From: Desulfolithobacter dissulfuricans
Lineage (GTDB): Bacteria; Desulfobacterota; Desulfobulbia; Desulfobulbales; Desulfobulbaceae
Length of the DNA stretch: 64,000 nt
Direction of reading: 5' to 3'
NCBI RefSeq assembly: GCF_025998535.1
Contig: NZ_AP024233.1
Location: 2,488,001-2,552,000 of the forward strand
Position 1 is the stretch's first letter. Each line of letters starts with the position of its first letter. A program made the translations under genes and the position numbers. The notes under the pieces were generated by a model, which ran no database searches, was not told the DNA's origin, and saw only the letters and a list, made by a program, of their open reading frames with translations. This document shows, in pieces, positions 44,787 through 53,762 of the stretch.

Positions 44787-47700
44787 ATGATTAAGCCTGG
44801 CTTATATGAACAACTGATCACCGAAGCACTGCAGGAAGAATTAGACCAGCTCCATTCCCGGTTCGAGATTATTCAATCCCGGATTGACGCAGGAGAAAGC
44901 CACTCCGTTCTTGCACAATTCATGGAGAAATTCCTGGAAAGTCTTCTCTCGCAGGCAAAAGGTCCGAACAAGATCAATGCGCAAATAGAAATATGCAATA
45001 AGCTCATAAGGCTGGCTGCCAGGGAACTGGAAAACATTTCTGACGGCTGGCCGCAGATCAGGCAAAGTGGAAAACGTCTGCTGCAGATACATGACCCGGC
45101 TTTTGCCAGACACCCGAAACCTGAAACGCCCCTGTCTGTCTCCTCGTTACTCACAGCCACATCAGGCGACCCGACCCTGGTTTCACAGCTCAAGCAGGAG
45201 ATCCTCCACGCCGACCATGTTGACATACTGGTATCTTTTATAAAATGGAGCGGAATCCGGATTATCAAGGACGAACTGGAAGAGGTAACCAGGCAGGGAA
45301 GACTGCGCATCATCACAACATCCTACCTTGGCGCCACAGACCTGAAGGCCATTGAGTACCTGCTCCAGCTTCCAAATACCGAAGTCAGGGTCTCCTTTGA
45401 CACCAAACGAACCAGGCTCCATGCCAAGGCCTATATTTTTCACCGCGCGAGCGGCTTTGGCACCAGCTATATCGGGTCATCAAATATTTCCAATCCCGCA
45501 ATGACCGACGGTCTGGAATGGAATGTGAAAGTATGCCAGTACGAGTCAGAACATCTCTGGGAAAAAATCAACGCCACCTTTGAGACCTACCAGTTATCCA
45601 AAGATTTTGACCTGATTTCCCTTGCAGACCTGCCCCGGCTCGATGATGCCCTGAGCCGTGAAAAAAAGGGTTCCCCTGCCCCGGAAGAACATCTGGCATT
45701 TTTTGACATTACCCCCTACCCCTTTCAGCAGGAAATTCTCGACAAATTAGAAGCAGAAAGGACCCTGCACAACAGGACAAAAAATCTTGTTGTAGCGGCA
45801 ACAGGAACAGGCAAAACCGTGATTGCGGCGTTTGATTTCAAGCGATTTTCCGCCAATACCAACGCTGCCCGCCTGCTTTTCGTTGCCCATCGGGAAGAAA
45901 TCCTCACCCAGGCACGGGCTGTATTCCGAAATATTTTACGGGATGAAAACTTTGGAGAGTTGTGGGTGGGCAACCATACGCCGCGCCACAAAGAGCAGCT
46001 CTTTGTCTCTGTGCAGACCTTTCACCGCCAGGAACTCTGGAACCAGCTTGATCCTGATTTTTACGACTTTATTATTATCGATGAATTCCACCATGCCGCA
46101 GCGTCCAGCTACGAAAAACTGACTGATTACTTTTCACCGAAAATTTTACTTGGCCTGACCGCCACCCCTGAACGGGCCGACGGAAAGGACATCCTCAAAT
46201 ATTTCGATGGCCATATCAGCGCCGAAATCAGGCTACCCGACGCGATCAACCGCAAACTCCTCTCCCCTTTCCAATATTTCTGCATAACCGACCGGGTTGA
46301 TTATTCGCAGGTAACCTGGCGCCGGGGAGGATATGACAAAAAAGAGTTGGAGGCATTGCTTGTCACCGGAGATGACATGCGGGCCAGGCTGATCATAAAC
46401 AAGGCCAGGGAACTGCTCCTTGACGTGTCCCAGACGCGCGGACTCTGCTTTTGCGTCTCAAAAGAACATGCAGAGTACATGGCCGGGCAATTTACCAAGC
46501 ATTGCATTCCCGCCCTGGCGCTCACCACGGACACACCGGACCACGAACGAAAACATGCCGTCCGGCAACTGAAAAACAGGGAAATCAACTTCCTCTGTGT
46601 TGTTGATCTGTTTAATGAAGGGGTGGATATCCCGGAAATAGACACGGTCATGTTCCTGCGCCCCACGGAAAGCCTTACCGTGTTTCTCCAGCAGTTAGGC
46701 CGTGGCTTGCGGCTCTGCGAGGGAAAAGACTGTTTGACGGTTCTTGATTTCATTGGCCAGGCCCATCAAAAATTTAACTTTGAAATCAGATTTCGGGCCC
46801 TGCTTGGCCAGACTGCCCGAAAAATTGAAGACGAGGTGGAATCGTCCTTTCCATCACTCCCGTCCGGATGCGTGATCGAGATGGAAAAGGAGGCGCAACG
46901 CTATATTCTGGAAAATATCAAAAAGGCCCTCACCCATGCCAACAAAAATCAAATTGTCAGCCGCATTGCCTCCTTTACCAATGACACAGGTCTTCCCCTC
47001 ACCCTTGAGAACTTTCTCGAACATCACGGCCTGGATCTTGACGACATTTACAAGAAAGCTTCCTGGGCAAGACTTTGCGCCCTGGCCGGCGAGAGAAGCG
47101 ATTTTCACGACCCGGATGAAATAATCCTGAGCAAGGGCCTGCGCCGGTTCTGCCACAACAACTCCGCGCCACAACTCAACAAGCTCTTGTCATTTTTGCA
47201 GGACAAGCAGACCGAATTTGCATGGACCAGCCTGCCCGATGAAACCCGGCTCTTACTGACAATGTTCTGCTTTTCTATCTGGAACAACAGACCACCCGGA
47301 CAAAGCTTGGAAGAAAACATCACTGCCTTGAAAAAAAACCCGGTGCTCTTTGCGGAAGCCATCCAGTTGATCCGATTGCTGCTCAAAAAAGCAGACACCC
47401 TGGTGCATGAAACTTCCCTGCCATTCCCCTGCTCTCTGTCTGTCCATGCCTGTTATACCAGGGACGAAATTTTATCTGGCCTTGGTTTCCTCACTTTTGA
47501 GCACAGGGTCAATGTCCGGGAAGGAGTAAAATATCTTTCTGAAATCAAAACCGATGTGTTTTTCATCACCCTCAACAAGACAGAAAAGGATTATTCTCCA
47601 ACCACGATGTATAAAGATTTTGCCCTGGACGAGACCACCTTTCACTGGCAGTCCCAAAGCACGACCAGTGATACCTCGCCAACAGGCCAGCGGTATATCA

Positions 47701-47903
47701 ACCACCGAAGACTTGGGAACCATATCCTTCTGTTTGTCAGGGAACACAAAAAGATAAACGGCCTGGCCTGCCCCTATTCCTTTCTCGGGCCGGCCACCTA
47801 TGACAGCCACACTGGCAGCAAACCCATGTCAATCATCTGGAAACTGCACTATCCAATGCCGGGTAAACTTGTCAGAACAACAGCACGCCTGGCGGTGGCC
47901 TGA
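44787..47903 (+). CDS. PLD nuclease-SF2 helicase-DUF3427 protein
   Basis: A 1038-residue multidomain protein. Residues 130-260 are a phospholipase-D-like domain with HxK ('LHAKAYIF', His212/Lys214) and the following 'SYIGSSNIS'. An SF2 helicase core comes next: Walker A 'ATGTGKT' at 338-344, 'IIDEFHH' at 430-436, 'GLTATPERADG' near 456, and motifs V/VI 'LFNEGVDIPEIDTVMFLRPT', 'QQLGRGLRL'. The last 330 residues match DUF3427 ('FFITLNKTEKDYSPTTMYKD', 'TGQRYINHRRLGNHILLFVR'). Proteins of this layout act on DNA and often lie in defence loci; function is not established. A single HxK motif implies PLD dimerisation. The Nudix gene follows after 2 bases. Confidence 0.88.
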   Translation: MIKPGLYEQLITEALQEELDQLHSRFEIIQSRIDAGESHSVLAQFMEKFLESLLSQAKGPNKINAQIEICNKLIRLAARELENISDGWPQIRQSGKRLLQIHDPAFARHPKPETPLSVSSLLTATSGDPTLVSQLKQEILHADHVDILVSFIKWSGIRIIKDELEEVTRQGRLRIITTSYLGATDLKAIEYLLQLPNTEVRVSFDTKRTRLHAKAYIFHRASGFGTSYIGSSNISNPAMTDGLEWNVKVCQYESEHLWEKINATFETYQLSKDFDLISLADLPRLDDALSREKKGSPAPEEHLAFFDITPYPFQQEILDKLEAERTLHNRTKNLVVAATGTGKTVIAAFDFKRFSANTNAARLLFVAHREEILTQARAVFRNILRDENFGELWVGNHTPRHKEQLFVSVQTFHRQELWNQLDPDFYDFIIIDEFHHAAASSYEKLTDYFSPKILLGLTATPERADGKDILKYFDGHISAEIRLPDAINRKLLSPFQYFCITDRVDYSQVTWRRGGYDKKELEALLVTGDDMRARLIINKARELLLDVSQTRGLCFCVSKEHAEYMAGQFTKHCIPALALTTDTPDHERKHAVRQLKNREINFLCVVDLFNEGVDIPEIDTVMFLRPTESLTVFLQQLGRGLRLCEGKDCLTVLDFIGQAHQKFNFEIRFRALLGQTARKIEDEVESSFPSLPSGCVIEMEKEAQRYILENIKKALTHANKNQIVSRIASFTNDTGLPLTLENFLEHHGLDLDDIYKKASWARLCALAGERSDFHDPDEIILSKGLRRFCHNNSAPQLNKLLSFLQDKQTEFAWTSLPDETRLLLTMFCFSIWNNRPPGQSLEENITALKKNPVLFAEAIQLIRLLLKKADTLVHETSLPFPCSLSVHACYTRDEILSGLGFLTFEHRVNVREGVKYLSEIKTDVFFITLNKTEKDYSPTTMYKDFALDETTFHWQSQSTTSDTSPTGQRYINHRRLGNHILLFVREHKKINGLACPYSFLGPATYDSHTGSKPMSIIWKLHYPMPGKLVRTTARLAVA

Positions 47904-47905
47904 TC

Positions 47906-48328
47906 ATGACACAGGCAAGACCCAAAATCATCGATGTTGCAGCCGGTGTTTTTGCGAAAGATAACCAGGTGCTGGTTGCCCGCCGCGCCAAGGGACAGCA
48001 CCTTGCAGGAAAATGGGAATTTCCCGGCGGCAAGATTGAGCATGGAGAGACACCGGAAGAATGTCTGTGCCGCGAATTCAAGGAAGAGTTTGATGTGACG
48101 ATTACGGTTGGAGAATATGTGGCCGAGAGTATCCACAAGTATCCAGACAAAAATATCCGACTCCTGGCCTATTACGTTACCTTGATTTCCGGCAATTTTA
48201 CGCTCAAGGTCCACGACGCGATCAAGTGGGTGGAAATTAAACATCTCTTACAAATAAATCTGGCTGAGGCTGATATTCCCATTGCTGCTGTTCTGGAGCA
48301 ACAGGAAAATCAACCGGTCCAGCCATAG
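47906..48328 (+). CDS. Nudix hydrolase, MutT/NudG-like
   Basis: A 140-residue Nudix enzyme. 'GKWEFPGGKIEHGETPEE' and 'REFKEEFDV' form the Nudix box, though the usual REL/EE-G ending is E-EF-D. 'VGEYVAESIHKYPDKNIRLL' and 'ADIPIAAVL' near the end resemble MutT and especially NudG, which hydrolyses oxidised or C5-modified (d)CTP. It starts 2 bases after the helicase stop and must be co-translated with it. A role in clearing modified nucleotides alongside the helicase is inferred. Confidence 0.85.
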   Translation: MTQARPKIIDVAAGVFAKDNQVLVARRAKGQHLAGKWEFPGGKIEHGETPEECLCREFKEEFDVTITVGEYVAESIHKYPDKNIRLLAYYVTLISGNFTLKVHDAIKWVEIKHLLQINLAEADIPIAAVLEQQENQPVQP

Positions 48329-48555
48329 CCTGCAACAGTGATAGCCAGTAAGTGGACAAGCGATTTTTCCAAACGCATTTCCTCAGAAAACCGTTGCGCT
48401 GCAACCTTTTTGAACGAGTACAAAAAAAATACTTGATTATTCAATAAGTTACACATAACAACCCATTGAAAAACTCTTCTTTTCCCGCAAAGTAATTGAA
48501 CCCATCGGTTAATCGGCTAAAATGCCGAAAAGAGCTATCATACAAAGAAGTTCCG

Positions 48556-48766
48556 ATGGCCATAGGCAAACGCAACAAGCCAGAACAGAAACCGCTCTGA
48601 ATAGCGGCCAGCGATCTGCCACCCAGGAGCGGACATCCTTTTTATACCCGCCTCAACCGGCTTCTCGAGAAAGACGGTTTCGACGCCTGGCTGGAAGAAA
48701 AATGCGCTCCATACTTTGCCAAAGGCGGACGTCCTTCCATTCTTCCAGGTGTTTATTTCCGGATGC
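48556..48766 (+). pseudogene. IS1182-like transposase, N-terminal remnant
   Basis: Reads MAIGKRNKPEQKPL, an in-frame TGA where the family has Trp, then 'IAASDLPPRSGHPFYTRLN', 'LLEKDGFDAWLEEKCAPYF' and 'GRPSILPGVYFRML', the usual IS1182-type N-terminus. It is broken at 48766 by the IS21-family element; the reading continues at 51413. Confidence 0.7.
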
Positions 48767-48786
48767 TGTTAATGACACTCCATATA

Positions 48787-48893
48787 GAGCCACTTCATGA
48801 TCACCTTAATCGGGCCACCCGATGATCGCCGTAATGGAGCCACCCCGTGATCATCATAATCGAGCCAGCCGGTGATCAGGTTAATCGAGCCAC
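48787..48893 (+). repeat. Four tandem 25-bp repeats at the IS21 left end
   Basis: Units of the form GAGCCACCC-GTGATCACC-TTAATC recur every 25 bases from 48787, and at least one more reversed copy lies near the right end (51370-51398). IS21 transposases bind such internal multiple repeats. Confidence 0.75.
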
Positions 48894-48982: not shown

Positions 48983-50560
48983 ATGGCCAACAGGAGGTTC
49001 GAGATGTTCCAATACCGTCAGATCCTTGCCTACATGCGCTCCGGCCAGTCGGATCGCCAGATTGCCAAAGCCGGTCTCATGGGACGAGCCAAAGCTTCGG
49101 AATTCCGTCGTATCGCAACGGAAAAGGGCTGGCTCTCCCCAAAGAGGCCTTTGCCGGATGACCACACCCTGGCTGCAGTTCTCAAGCGTCCCCGGCGCCC
49201 TGCTTCAGGTTCCATTCTGGCGCCCTACCACGAGAAGATCAAGTCTTGGCACAGGCAGGGAATCTCCGGCACCACCATTCATCAGGCACTGGTACGCGAT
49301 CATGGTTTTTCCGGCAGTTATTCAGCGGTACGCCGGTACCTGCAGCAGCTGAAGAATGACTCGCCAGAGGCCACGGTCATGCTCGACTTCAAGCCGGGCG
49401 AGGTGGCCCAGGTCGACTTCGGCAAGGGGCCGAAAATCACGGATACGACCACCGGCGAGGTGTTTTCCACCTGGTTCTTTGTCATGACCCTGGCCTTCAG
49501 CCGGCATCAGTATGCCGTGATCGTCAGGGACCAAAAAATACAGACCTGGCTTGGCTGTCACCGACGGGCCTTTGAATTCTTCGGCGGTATCCCGAAAAAG
49601 GTGGTGGTCGACAACCTGAAGTCCGCCATCACCAGGGCATGCTGGCGGGATCCCAGGATCCAGCGTTCCTATGCTGAACTGGCCGAAGGCTATGGTTTCC
49701 TGGTCTCGCCCTGTCCGCCCAACGAGCCAAGGAAAAAAGGCAGGGTCGAGGCCGGAGTCAAGTATATCAAGCGCAGCTTCCTGCCTTTACGCCGATTCAG
49801 AAGCCTTGGTGATGCCAACCGCCAACTGCGCGAATGGATCATGGAGAGCGCCGGCAACCGTGTCCATGGCACTACCAGGCAGAAGCCGCTTTCCCTCTTT
49901 GCAGAAGCGGAAAAACACCTGCTCAAGCCCCTGCCGGCCAAGGTGCCGGAGCTGGCGGTCTGGTCTGCACACAAGCTGCATGGCAACTGTCATCTGCAGT
50001 TTGAAAAATGCTTTTACTCGGCACCCTACAGGCTGGTCCGCAAACAGCTCTGGGTCAAGGCCACGGAAACGACCGTCAAGATCTTTCACGATCACGAACT
50101 GGTGGCGGTTCATCCCCGGAAACACAGGCCCGGCGAGAAATCGACCATCATCGGTCACCTGCCGCCCGATGCCGTGGCCTACCTGATGCGTGACCCGCAA
50201 TGGTGCCTCAGGCAGGCTGGTGTAACAGGCCCCAACTGTTTACGTCTCATCGAGTCTCTTTTCGCTCACCGAGTCCTGGACAATCTCAGGGCTGCCCAGG
50301 GAGTCATCGGCCTTGCCGGGAAGTATGGTCAGGTCCGCCTGGAAGCCGCCTGTCGGCGTGCTCTTTTCTTTGACAGTCCAAAGTACATCACGGTCAAGAC
50401 CATCCTGGCAAAGGGGCTCGATCAACTGCCCGACGATCCCGTTCCCACACCCCTGCCGGCAACCTATACCGGCAAAGGACGTTTTCAAAGAACATGCTCG
50501 AGAGTGGTCACAACCTCTTCGTCCAAGGAGGACTCGATATGCATCCCATGCCCGAACTGA
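48983..50560 (+). CDS. istA: IS21 family transposase IstA
   Basis: A 525-residue DDE transposase. An N-terminal HTH ('YRQILAYMRSGQSDRQIAKA') is followed by the catalytic core with Asp145 ('EVAQVDFGKGP'), Asp210 ('KKVVVDNLKSAI') and Glu256 ('KKGRVEAGVKYIK'). A C-terminal beta-barrel and tail complete it. GGGAGG lies before ATG 48983. The end overlaps istB by 22 bases. Confidence 0.95.
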   Translation: MANRRFEMFQYRQILAYMRSGQSDRQIAKAGLMGRAKASEFRRIATEKGWLSPKRPLPDDHTLAAVLKRPRRPASGSILAPYHEKIKSWHRQGISGTTIHQALVRDHGFSGSYSAVRRYLQQLKNDSPEATVMLDFKPGEVAQVDFGKGPKITDTTTGEVFSTWFFVMTLAFSRHQYAVIVRDQKIQTWLGCHRRAFEFFGGIPKKVVVDNLKSAITRACWRDPRIQRSYAELAEGYGFLVSPCPPNEPRKKGRVEAGVKYIKRSFLPLRRFRSLGDANRQLREWIMESAGNRVHGTTRQKPLSLFAEAEKHLLKPLPAKVPELAVWSAHKLHGNCHLQFEKCFYSAPYRLVRKQLWVKATETTVKIFHDHELVAVHPRKHRPGEKSTIIGHLPPDAVAYLMRDPQWCLRQAGVTGPNCLRLIESLFAHRVLDNLRAAQGVIGLAGKYGQVRLEAACRRALFFDSPKYITVKTILAKGLDQLPDDPVPTPLPATYTGKGRFQRTCSRVVTTSSSKEDSICIPCPN

Positions 50561-51324
50561 TCCCCATGCTCAAGCAGCTGCGCCTCTCCGGGATCATGGA
50601 TTCCCTGGAGATCCGGAACCGGCAGGCGATCGATGAAAAAATGGCCTATACCGACTTCCTCGCCCTCCTTATCCAGGACGAGGTGGCGCGCCGTACGCAA
50701 CGAAAATTCGACATGCGGATCAGGCGCGCCGGGTTCCGCAATCAGAAAACCCTGGAGGATTTCGACTTTTCCTTCAATCCCGCCATCAACAAGGCCCAGG
50801 TAATGGACCTGGCCACCTGCCGTTTCATGGAGGAAAAGGCCTGTGTCCTGATCGTGGGCCCCTGCGGCACCGGAAAGAGTCACATCGCCCAGGCACTCGG
50901 CCATTGCGCCATCCGGCTGGGTCGTGATGTTGTCTTCACGACCCAGACAAAACTGCTCGGTCAGCTCCAGGCCGCCCGGGCCACCAACACTTACGACCGG
51001 CGCCTGAATACCCTGGCCAAGGTCGACCTGCTGATCATCGACGATTTTGGACTCAAGCCTCTCCGCACACCCCAGGACGAGGATATCCACGACCTGATCG
51101 GCGAACGGTATGAACGACGTTCGACCATCATCACCAGTAACCTGGATCTGTCCGAATGGCGTGACGCCTTTCCCAACAAACTGCTGGGTGCAGCCACCAT
51201 CGACCGCATACGCCATGGCGCCTATTGCGTGGTCCTCGATGGCAAAAGTTACCGGACCACAAAACCACTGCCAAAACCCCAAAAAAAGGAGGTGGAAAAA
51301 ACAGAAAAATCGTCTAAAAATTAA
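50539..51324 (+). CDS. istB: IS21 family helper ATPase IstB
   Basis: A 261-residue AAA+ protein related to DnaC that assembles on DNA and stimulates IstA. Walker A 'GPCGTGKSH' at about 107-115, Walker B 'VDLLIIDDFG', sensor-like 'STIITSNLDLSEW' and the arginine in 'ATIDRIRHGA'. AAGGAGG is 8 bases before ATG 50539, preferred over an earlier in-frame start. The tail is Lys-rich. Confidence 0.95.
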   Translation: MHPMPELIPMLKQLRLSGIMDSLEIRNRQAIDEKMAYTDFLALLIQDEVARRTQRKFDMRIRRAGFRNQKTLEDFDFSFNPAINKAQVMDLATCRFMEEKACVLIVGPCGTGKSHIAQALGHCAIRLGRDVVFTTQTKLLGQLQAARATNTYDRRLNTLAKVDLLIIDDFGLKPLRTPQDEDIHDLIGERYERRSTIITSNLDLSEWRDAFPNKLLGAATIDRIRHGAYCVVLDGKSYRTTKPLPKPQKKEVEKTEKSSKN

Positions 51325-52015: not shown

Positions 52016-52165
52016 ACAAAAATGTTTGATTCCGTTCCGTTTTCGCAGGAAGCAGTGAAGATACGAAGAAAATTTAACGAGACAGCAGATAAAAGCTTCA
52101 ATATTGAAAGCTAACAGACAGATATGCTGCCACTCCCGGCACTGCCGGAAAGGAGCTTTTTCAAG

Positions 52166-52771
52166 ATGCTCGGGCACCAGCAAAACACCCCTGATTTCTA
52201 CCACACCCATGCCCGGAAATACTTTGAACAAACCCGGGCCATTGATTCATCCCGGTTTCTTGGAGTGCTCGCACACAGGCTGCCCAAAGGGGCCACTGTC
52301 CTGGACATTGGCTGCGGTTCCGGGCGTGATCTTCTCTATCTGAAAAACAGTGGGTTTTGCGCAACAGGATTGGAACGTTCTGCAAAGCTTGCCGAACTTG
52401 CCCGCAAGTTTTCCGGTTGTCCTGTTATTGAGGGTGACTTTACCTGTTATGATTTTTCCAGTCTCCGGTGCGATGCGCTTGTCCTTGTCGGCGCCCTGGT
52501 GCATCTGCAGAAGCCGGAACTCGGCCCGGTACTTGGCCGGATCAGCCAGGCTCTGGAACAGGATGGCCTCATCTATCTTTCCCTGAAACATGGCAATGGA
52601 CAATACAGGAACGATGATGGCCGCATCTTTACCCTCTGGCAGCATGAAGAGCTGGAAAAAATTTTTACTGGGTGCGGGTTTGTCAATCTCGATTTTTCCA
52701 GGAACAGATCTGCAATGAACCCGCACGATACCTGGCTGGGGTATCTGCTGCAGAAACAGGATACCATGTAA
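52166..52771 (+). CDS. Class I SAM-dependent methyltransferase
   Basis: A 201-residue enzyme with the Rossmann SAM motif 'VLDIGCGSGRDLLYLKNSG', 'GLERSAKL', 'IEGDFTCYDF' and 'LVGALVHLQK'. It lacks the (D/N)PPY motif of DNA N-methyltransferases and the PC motif of C5-methyltransferases, so a small-molecule or protein substrate is more likely than DNA. AAAGGAG precedes ATG 52166. The HNH nuclease gene starts 2 bases after its stop, so they are translated together. Confidence 0.82.
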   Translation: MLGHQQNTPDFYHTHARKYFEQTRAIDSSRFLGVLAHRLPKGATVLDIGCGSGRDLLYLKNSGFCATGLERSAKLAELARKFSGCPVIEGDFTCYDFSSLRCDALVLVGALVHLQKPELGPVLGRISQALEQDGLIYLSLKHGNGQYRNDDGRIFTLWQHEELEKIFTGCGFVNLDFSRNRSAMNPHDTWLGYLLQKQDTM

Positions 52772-52772
52772 A

Positions 52773-53762
52773 ATGACCGGAAAACTTGCCCATTACCTGC
52801 AATCATTATCCACCCTGCGGACCGACAAAAACAGAAACCGGTGGTCAGCCGCCACCTGTTTCAGGGCGCCGCACAAATCTTTCCTGCTCCTGTCTATTTT
52901 CGATCTGATTGCGTCAGGGTCGATTACAGAAAATTTCATCGAACCGTCGTTTGAGCTGGCAGAGACGTTTGCAGGCTACTGGTCGCTGGTAATGGCACCT
53001 GGAACATCCGGTTCCATGTCGTATCCATTTTATCATCTTGGCACCTCCGGGTTCTGGCATCTCCAGCCCCAACCTGGTTTCTCGCATAAAAGAGGACGAA
53101 CCATCAGCTCGGTAAAACGACTGCGAGAGCTCTACCTTGGCGCACGGTTTGATGACGATCTCTTCCATCTGCTGATCATGGAAGAGTCCCGGGAGATACT
53201 GCGCAAGATCCTGATCACAACTTTTTTTGCGCCAGAGGTACAACCTGTCGTGACCAGGCAGGGTCTCATAAACCGTGATGCCGCACAGTACAGTGCCCAC
53301 CTGTTAGCTGCAGCAGAACCGATGCCAGCCTATGTCACAGCCAGTGAGACGGATGAACAAACCAGATGCAGGGTTCGTGACCAGGGATTCCGCAGGGCCA
53401 TTGTCACGCTCTATGAACACCGCTGCGCCATGTGCGGCATCCGCATGCGAACCCCGGAAGGGCACACCATTGTGGAAGCCGCCCACATTGTCCCGTGGAG
53501 CCGGAGCCACAATGACAGGCCCCAGAACGGCATGGCCCTGTGCCGGCTGTGCCACTGGTCTTTTGACAAAGGGTTAATGGGCGTTGGCAAAGAATATGAA
53601 GTGTTGATTTCGCCGGCAGTACGCCGGAACAATAACTTTCCCGGCCACATGGAAACCTTATCCGGCCGAGGTATATTCAAACCAGGTGATGCAACCTTCT
53701 GGCCGGACCAGGAATACCTGCAAATACATAGAAAAGAGCGATTCAGAAGGATATCTCACTGA
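52773..53762 (+). CDS. HNH restriction endonuclease with probable phosphorothioate-DNA-binding (SBD) domain
   Basis: A 329-residue nuclease. The N-terminal region 'RAPHKSFLLLSIFDLIASG', then 'SYPFYHLGTSGFWHLQP', follows the APHKPLLLL/PFWRL pattern of the sulfur-binding domain in phosphorothioate-dependent enzymes. The C-terminal HNH fold has 'CAMCG' (218/221), 'EAAHIVPWSRSHNDRPQNGM' with His238 and the HN pair, and 'CRLCHWSFDKG'. Such proteins cut DNA carrying Dnd-type sulfur marks. No dnd genes are in view, so it would attack incoming modified DNA. Domain call is from motif resemblance. Confidence 0.8.
   Translation: MTGKLAHYLQSLSTLRTDKNRNRWSAATCFRAPHKSFLLLSIFDLIASGSITENFIEPSFELAETFAGYWSLVMAPGTSGSMSYPFYHLGTSGFWHLQPQPGFSHKRGRTISSVKRLRELYLGARFDDDLFHLLIMEESREILRKILITTFFAPEVQPVVTRQGLINRDAAQYSAHLLAAAEPMPAYVTASETDEQTRCRVRDQGFRRAIVTLYEHRCAMCGIRMRTPEGHTIVEAAHIVPWSRSHNDRPQNGMALCRLCHWSFDKGLMGVGKEYEVLISPAVRRNNNFPGHMETLSGRGIFKPGDATFWPDQEYLQIHRKERFRRISH

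Follow-up and report, generated by a model that had tools for sequence, protein, structure and literature searches.

A SauUSI-type restriction enzyme gene and its abutting Nudix hydrolase gene in Desulfolithobacter dissulfuricans: a putative two-gene Type IV restriction unit

SauUSI, a Staphylococcus aureus enzyme said to form a major obstacle to the transfer of genes into this species (PMC7913695), performs ATP-dependent cutting of DNA containing 5-methylcytosine (5mC) or 5-hydroxymethylcytosine, a process which involves translocation and an SRA domain (PMC7913695, PMC3874153). Its published structure and biochemistry deal with a single protein. Here, we describe a locus of Desulfolithobacter dissulfuricans (NZ_AP024233.1, positions 2,488,001 to 2,552,000; this stretch of 64,000 nucleotides [nt] is referred to as the window) in which the gene for a probable SauUSI-type enzyme is followed by a gene encoding a Nudix hydrolase of the MutT/NudG-like group, with two bases separating the stop codon of the former from the start of the latter. 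Comparative analysis of homologous loci demonstrates that the pairing of SauUSI-type and Nudix genes is not due to chance. The original prediction for this DNA, which was made from its letters alone and named a PLD-helicase-DUF3427 gene with a Nudix gene two bases further on, is matched exactly by the open reading frames (ORFs), both in coordinates and in the size of the gap.

The restriction enzyme and its Nudix neighbor

The large protein is a new member of the known SauUSI family, for which ATP-dependent cutting of DNA containing modified cytosine is predicted on the basis of homology and fold. Its nearest solved relative is SauUSI itself (PDB 7clg; phmmer E-value, 4.5e-90), and the PADLOC mREase_IV model, which represents Type IV methyl-directed restriction enzymes (PDLC03659), scores it at 751 bits. 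Matches to the Pfam families ResIII (9.2e-39), Helicase_C (2.3e-15), PLDc_2 (2.8e-07), and DUF3427 (4e-23) bear out the anticipated presence of PLD, SF2, and DUF3427 regions within one polypeptide, and the assignment to a family of Type IV enzymes acting on modified cytosine lends support to the earlier suggestion of a helicase-nuclease directed against modified DNA. The predicted PLD domain is structurally most similar to 7clg_B (Z score, 22.0), followed by BfiI (18.4) and NucT (17.1), and the N-terminal segment comprising residues 1 to 290 was predicted at a pLDDT (predicted local distance difference test) of 93.6, with PDB matches beginning at approximately residue 97; the N-terminal extension (residues 1 to 96) was modeled only as part of this segment. 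When the window protein and 97 homologues (98 long-form rows in all) were aligned together with eight SauUSI-like proteins, the PLD residues H212 and K214 were present in 98/98 long-form rows. The acidic residue of the SauUSI H(X)K(X)4E motif is absent, its position being occupied by H219 in the window protein and being variable across the long form; because it is also replaced by R, D, or K in SauUSI-like rows, this residue was not taken as defining the wider family.

The C-terminal segment spanning residues 862 to 1034 (pLDDT, 89.7) is predicted to adopt an SRA base-flipping fold, which aligns with SauUSI residues 787 to 953 at a Z score of 14.0 (143 residues aligned; root mean square deviation, 4.5), as would be expected had the DUF3427 region, as conjectured previously, contained a PUA/SRA-like pocket for a modified base. 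The next structural matches of this model, namely, SUVH6, SUVH5, AspBHI, AbaSI, LpnPI, MspJI, PvuRts1I, ScoMcrA, and UHRF1/2 (Z scores of 9.5 to approximately 7), all read modified DNA. D944, the counterpart of SauUSI D858, which has been modeled as holding the flipped cytosine (PMC7913695), is retained in 98/98 long-form rows and W954 (equivalent to SauUSI W868) in 97/98, and F926 and I927 of the window protein agree with the SauUSI pocket. The coupler, to which a region of the window protein is likened on the basis of its position, has been described for SauUSI (PMC7913695).

The Nudix protein matches Pfam NUDIX above the cut-off (4.9e-19) as well as NUDIX_4, scores 163.8 bits against the PADLOC model PDC-S07, and is similar to the NudG structure 2rrk (5.9e-22). 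The consensus of the Nudix box is GX5EX7REUXEEXGU, of which R56, E57, E60, and E61 are invariant across 13/13 sequences, the final Gly being replaced by Asp63 in the window protein. The resemblance to NudG noted earlier holds in part: the protein attains 111.5 bits on the NudG model (NCBIfam PRK10546; 267.9 bits for E. coli NudG), which is under the cut-off of 156, while the cut-off of the MutT model (NCBIfam TIGR00586, 97.9) is passed with 101.6 bits (229.9 bits for E. coli MutT). Model scores, in other words, place the window Nudix between NudG and general MutT.

Two potential signs of function in the Nudix protein were considered and rejected. The first is the Asp corresponding to NudG D118 and to MutT N119, of which the latter has a functional role in E. 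coli MutT; it is found in the window protein and in 45/45 Nudix proteins abutting or near homologues, and its use as a sign of cytosine specificity was abandoned as it is also present in 25/26 non-partner relatives and, hence, represents a family trait. The second is the PDC-S07 match as a sign of defense, since the same model (PDLC04899) scores E. coli NudG at 147 and MutT at 131 bits (genes at L177:1491-1898 and L178:1045-1434). Published PDC-S07 counts may, therefore, include housekeeping genes, and this lack of specificity probably explains the reported occurrence of PDC-S07 in 99% of Enterobacter genomes (PMC12851794).

Recurrence and origin of the gene pair

Within a phylum sample of 395 evenly drawn genomes, 19 possessed DUF3427, three of which (G131, G171, and G369) were dropped as they yielded fragments only. 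An abutting, same-strand Nudix gene was present in 12 of the 16 full-length carriers, window included (10 upstream and 2 downstream), and missing from 4. The wider survey encompassed 99 full-length homologues outside the window, consisting of 15 from the phylum sample, 2 from nearer relatives, the best 80 of 589 contig relatives, and 2 from viral contigs, the remaining 32 of 34 viral loci being left out of the count as they matched in the helicase only. An abutting, same-strand Nudix gene accompanied 41 of these 99 homologues (29 upstream and 12 downstream; gap of -101 to +18 nt), as opposed to approximately 0.3 expected from flank density; the homologues are related, and the observed figure does not count independent events. 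Other, non-abutting Nudix matches in 1.13 Mb of flanks numbered seven, of which four exceeded 100 bits and lay within approximately 2.2 kb. As a control, 49 loci of other SF2 helicases were inspected, among which a single Nudix match, of 14 bits, was encountered. The association put forward for the window thus repeats elsewhere, including at the S. aureus locus.

With respect to the latter, a 55.6-kb record labeled Staphylococcus phage SA 1306 Kay, which is probably host DNA, encodes a 953-amino-acid protein matching 7clg over 953/953 residues (2065.7 bits), and the start of this SauUSI gene is located 1 nt past the stop codon of a Nudix ORF. The Nudix gene is likewise next to SauUSI in S. aureus NZ_CP077890.1, where the restriction ORF is broken and where the Nudix product, annotated as a (deoxy)nucleoside triphosphate pyrophosphohydrolase (WP_000755954.1), is identical over 130/130 amino acids to PDB 5x1x ("Mutator mutT protein"). 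Structures have, therefore, been solved for both SauUSI (7clg) and its Nudix neighbor (5x1x). Plasmid-encoded SauUSI-like genes with an upstream Nudix gene were identified in Lactiplantibacillus plantarum, L. curvatus, Hymenobacter canadensis, and Limosilactobacillus fermentum, and those without one in Neotabrizicola, Paracoccus, Rhodobacter, Spiroplasma, Fusobacterium, and Aeromonas; all four long-form plasmid homologues inspected (of eight listed) and one phage-labeled record also had no Nudix gene. In a separate scan of viral contigs for the SauUSI clade, three strong relatives were detected in 80 loci, none with a Nudix gene.

The pairing probably arose repeatedly, because the partners belong to several Nudix lineages. 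On a tree of 98 rows, the presence or absence of the Nudix gene requires at least 16 changes, and gene order among the pairs requires 3. In the Nudix tree (74 domains and 138 columns), many forks are weak and the E. coli rows occupy long branches; one 34-row group (95/85) accommodates 29 of the 30 upstream partners, S. aureus included. The 13 downstream partners are scattered over five places: one holds the window, another consists of Paenibacillaceae, a third is a Flavonifractor-Monoglobus group, and the partners at loci L088 and L075 each stand alone. The window Nudix and the Nudix proteins of its two nearest pairs form a group (100/99), which is joined by a single non-partner, an in-frame fusion of Nudix and methyltransferase domains (L218:2491-3543) and the nearest non-partner relative of the window Nudix. 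An upstream-clade Nudix gene at L217:5730-8495 is situated between HipA-like and DUF2726/zinc-ribbon genes, with no SauUSI gene within the 15-kb stretch.

Compared with the two nearest pairs, the window proteins are 56 to 71% identical and their genes are still adjacent; synonymous sites are saturated, for which reason the ratio of nonsynonymous to synonymous substitution rates was dropped as evidence and the conservation of both proteins alone was retained. Nine genes flanking the pair in the window were looked for in the surroundings of four relatives (in one case a stretch of just 4 kb), and none was detected; this absence of shared flanking genes fits with a pair moving as a unit.

The coordinates of the pair and its features are listed in Table 1. 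Upstream lie urea-transporter genes in the opposite orientation, and downstream a 92-amino-acid ORF without a Pfam match (48522-48800) precedes an IS21 element with overlapping istA and istB ORFs (48983-51324, + strand). Further downstream (52124-53762, + strand) lies possibly a second defense or modification pair, comprising a gene for a small methyltransferase (PADLOC mad2, 54 bits) and, 1 nt beyond it, one for an HNH nuclease (PADLOC PDLC04132, 86 bits). Promoter and terminator scans returned scores not clearly above those of shuffled sequence.

Table 1. Features of the gene pair, in window coordinates
Feature	Residues	Position	Strand	Evidence
Probable long-form, ATP-dependent Type IV restriction endonuclease of the SauUSI type	1038 amino acids	44787..47903	+	PADLOC mREase_IV, phmmer to 7clg, Pfam
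N-terminal helical extension	1-96	44787..45074	+	Aligned throughout long-form family; no partner among the PDB matches listed
PLD nuclease domain (predicted)	97-288	45075..45650	+	Predicted model versus PDB; Pfam PLDc_2
Catalytic HxK motif (predicted)	H212, K214	45420..45428	+	Invariant in alignment
SF2 helicase-like ATPase/translocase (predicted)	~302-668	45690..46790	+	ResIII, Helicase_C, alignment to 7clg
Putative coupler region	~669-861	46791..47369	+	Position between ATPase and SRA, relative to SauUSI
Predicted SRA-fold target recognition domain, end of Pfam DUF3427	862-1034	47370..47888	+	Predicted model
Codon of counterpart of SauUSI D858	D944	47616..47618	+	D in all long-form rows
Nudix hydrolase, MutT/NudG-like group	140 amino acids	47906..48328	+	NUDIX, NUDIX_4; PDC-S07; 2rrk
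Nudix box, catalytic RE-x2-EE	42-64	48029..48097	+	Sequence

A proposed role in nucleotide-pool cleaning and its alternatives

It is tentatively proposed, with confidence somewhat short of even, that the two genes form a Type IV restriction unit in which the Nudix protein removes 5-modified deoxycytidine triphosphate (dCTP), so that the host avoids making DNA which its own enzyme would cut. Family, domains, predicted fold, and association having been computed, we infer the substrate of the Nudix protein and the purpose of the pair as follows. The SRA domain of the large protein would find 5-methyl- or 5-hydroxymethylcytosine in DNA, upon which the SF2 motor would translocate and the PLD nuclease, as a dimer, would cut, a mode of action which is published for SauUSI and which for the window protein is deduced from homology and predicted fold. 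Because a modification-dependent enzyme of this kind has no protecting methylase, the host would have to ensure that its own DNA stays free of modified cytosine. Released when modified DNA of phages or plasmids is shredded, or produced by damage, modified nucleotides might be salvaged and incorporated, whereby the chromosome would become a target; a neighboring hydrolase of 5-modified dCTP would close this salvage loop, affording self-protection by pool cleaning instead of methylation.

The proposal is favored by the identity of the restriction enzyme, its invariant catalytic and base-reading residues, the predicted SRA fold, the frequency of abutting Nudix genes, the same arrangement at the S. 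aureus sauUSI locus, the probable repeated origin of the pairing, and the conservation and continued adjacency of the window pair and its two nearest pairs at saturated synonymous sites. Hydrolases of 5-methyl-dCTP exist in E. coli and mammals (PMC10742078), and E. coli NudG favors this nucleotide over CTP according to a published table (PMC5158307). A further point in its favor comes from L. plantarum (L227:5790-6110) and L. fermentum (L235:5503-5814), where the gene for the SauUSI homologue is immediately followed by one for an unrelated, MazG-like nucleoside triphosphate pyrophosphohydrolase (PF12643), which occurs besides the upstream Nudix, such that each of these loci encodes two unrelated nucleotide hydrolases. 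Human DCTPP1, which is cited for hydrolysis of 5-methyl-dCTP (PMC10742078), belongs to the MazG-like superfamily.

Several observations weigh against the proposal. No abutting Nudix gene accompanies 49 of the 99 homologues (9 more being undecidable at contig ends) or 10 of the 15 named plasmid homologues inspected (5/15 with Nudix), and Nudix genes were found in 0/11 McrBC and 0/5 SAD_SRA neighborhoods of the phylum (stretches of 8 to 14 kb; a sub-cut-off McrBC match in G103 is not included), McrBC likewise being a reader of 5mC. Genes for m5C (5-methylcytosine) methylases are not depleted in carriers (4/16, one a weak match, versus 106/379; Fisher p = 1); in the genome of the window itself, none was found. 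At the level of the Nudix protein, the window sequence fails the NudG cut-off, and the NudG-like Asp is not special to partners. Near Nudix-less homologues, no MazG, dCTP deaminase, or similar substitute sanitizer was apparent among the Pfam families detected (the 25 most frequent of 70; 53 of 66 neighbor ORFs scanned), and application of the MazG model to the homologue loci produced one further match, more than 2.5 kb distant, at locus L074.

The best-surviving alternative, which we nonetheless regard as rather unlikely, is that the Nudix protein acts on another substrate, such as 8-oxo-dGTP, damaged cytosine nucleotides, a dinucleotide, or the 5' end of RNA, or that it regulates or binds the restriction enzyme, and that the two genes are coupled on this account. 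Its passing of the general MutT cut-off is consistent with such a role, as are the diversity of the Nudix lineages from which partners stem and the scores of eight further partners, S. aureus included, of which none reaches the NudG cut-off and only that of locus L102 passes the MutT cut-off. In addition, the lowest PDB E-value of the window Nudix was obtained with 3ees, a "probable pyrophosphohydrolase" which we take to be an RNA pyrophosphohydrolase. This alternative is, however, argued against by the Asp which replaces MutT Asn119 in 45/45 partners, and by the finding that one SauUSI polypeptide is sufficient for activity in vitro and when cloned in E. coli, so that cutting needs no partner (PMC3874153). 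As E. coli has its own NudG, the activity of that clone says nothing on pool cleaning.

An improbable alternative, related to the attack on phages envisaged in the original prediction, would see the Nudix protein destroy the hydroxymethyl-dCTP of T-even-like phages, which would be left with plain-cytosine DNA or slower replication, while the restriction enzyme would cut whatever modified DNA remained. Such phage starvation involves the same substrate class as pool cleaning, and would suit a gene family which is accessory (19/395 phylum genomes), around which, in four relatives, none of the nine flanking window genes recurs and for whose Nudix partner PADLOC lists the model as a defense candidate. 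Against this, the enzyme needs modified DNA, and stripping the modification would disarm it versus the same phage, and the PDC-S07 label is unspecific, as is evident from its scores for E. coli NudG and MutT. Pool cleaning to spare the host accounts for the pairing no less well than phage attack does. Finally, the view that operon packing within accessory islands brought the genes together by accident, with no functional link between them, would agree with the Nudix-less half of the homologues but is very improbable given the excess of abutting over expected and non-abutting Nudix genes, the near-empty control loci, the repeated recruitment, and the occurrence of both gene orders.

It is, furthermore, a real though doubtful possibility that SauUSI-type restriction in general is natively two-component, with immunity derived from a nucleotide-pool Nudix hydrolase (and, in some lactobacilli, also a MazG-like enzyme) and not from a methylase. 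If so, 5-modified dCTP would be excluded from host DNA, modified cytosine would stay a reliable mark of foreign DNA, and the host would be safeguarded through its nucleotide precursors, for which there is, to our knowledge, no precedent among restriction systems. A function would also be provided for a Nudix group now listed merely as a "phage defense candidate," and, should the Nudix partner decide when and against what SauUSI safely acts, this Type IV enzyme would possess an overlooked second component.

Comparison with described systems

The window protein shares with SauUSI (7clg) the PLD-SF2-coupler-SRA order, the H/K catalytic residues, the base-reading Asp and Trp, and the abutting Nudix gene. 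It differs in being a long form, with approximately 96 extra N-terminal residues and about one-third identity over the shared core; in the lack of conservation of SauUSI E126, at which position it carries H219; and in gene order, the Nudix gene being upstream in S. aureus and downstream in the window. The Nudix protein of the S. aureus sauUSI locus (5x1x) is similarly of the MutT/NudG-like group, matches PDC-S07, and carries Asp at the NudG 118 position, yet it is located on another branch of the Nudix tree than the window Nudix. E. coli NudG (Orf135) has the Nudix family and the Asp at position 118 in common with the window protein, in which R72 and R77 of NudG are not kept and whose score, as noted, is below the NudG cut-off.

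The pairing of Nudix and restriction genes is itself not new, because neighbors of this kind have already been reported in print: a figure legend names MutT homologues as the small proteins beside SauUSI homologues in Streptococcus (PMC7641849), and PDC-S07 was co-localized with Type IV restriction-modification in 23/23 occurrences in Streptococcus suis (PMC12813430). The same neighbor relation is thereby captured as a legend and a co-localization count, whereas the S. aureus sauUSI locus, a cross-phylum survey, and a mechanism are not mentioned in the covered parts of these two reports. The literature search found no proposed mechanism joining a SauUSI-type enzyme and a Nudix protein, on which Xu et al. 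2011 might say more. The two-gene unit, accordingly, represents a known neighbor relation without a known function, which is traced here through several phyla and also to SauUSI as the family's founding enzyme.

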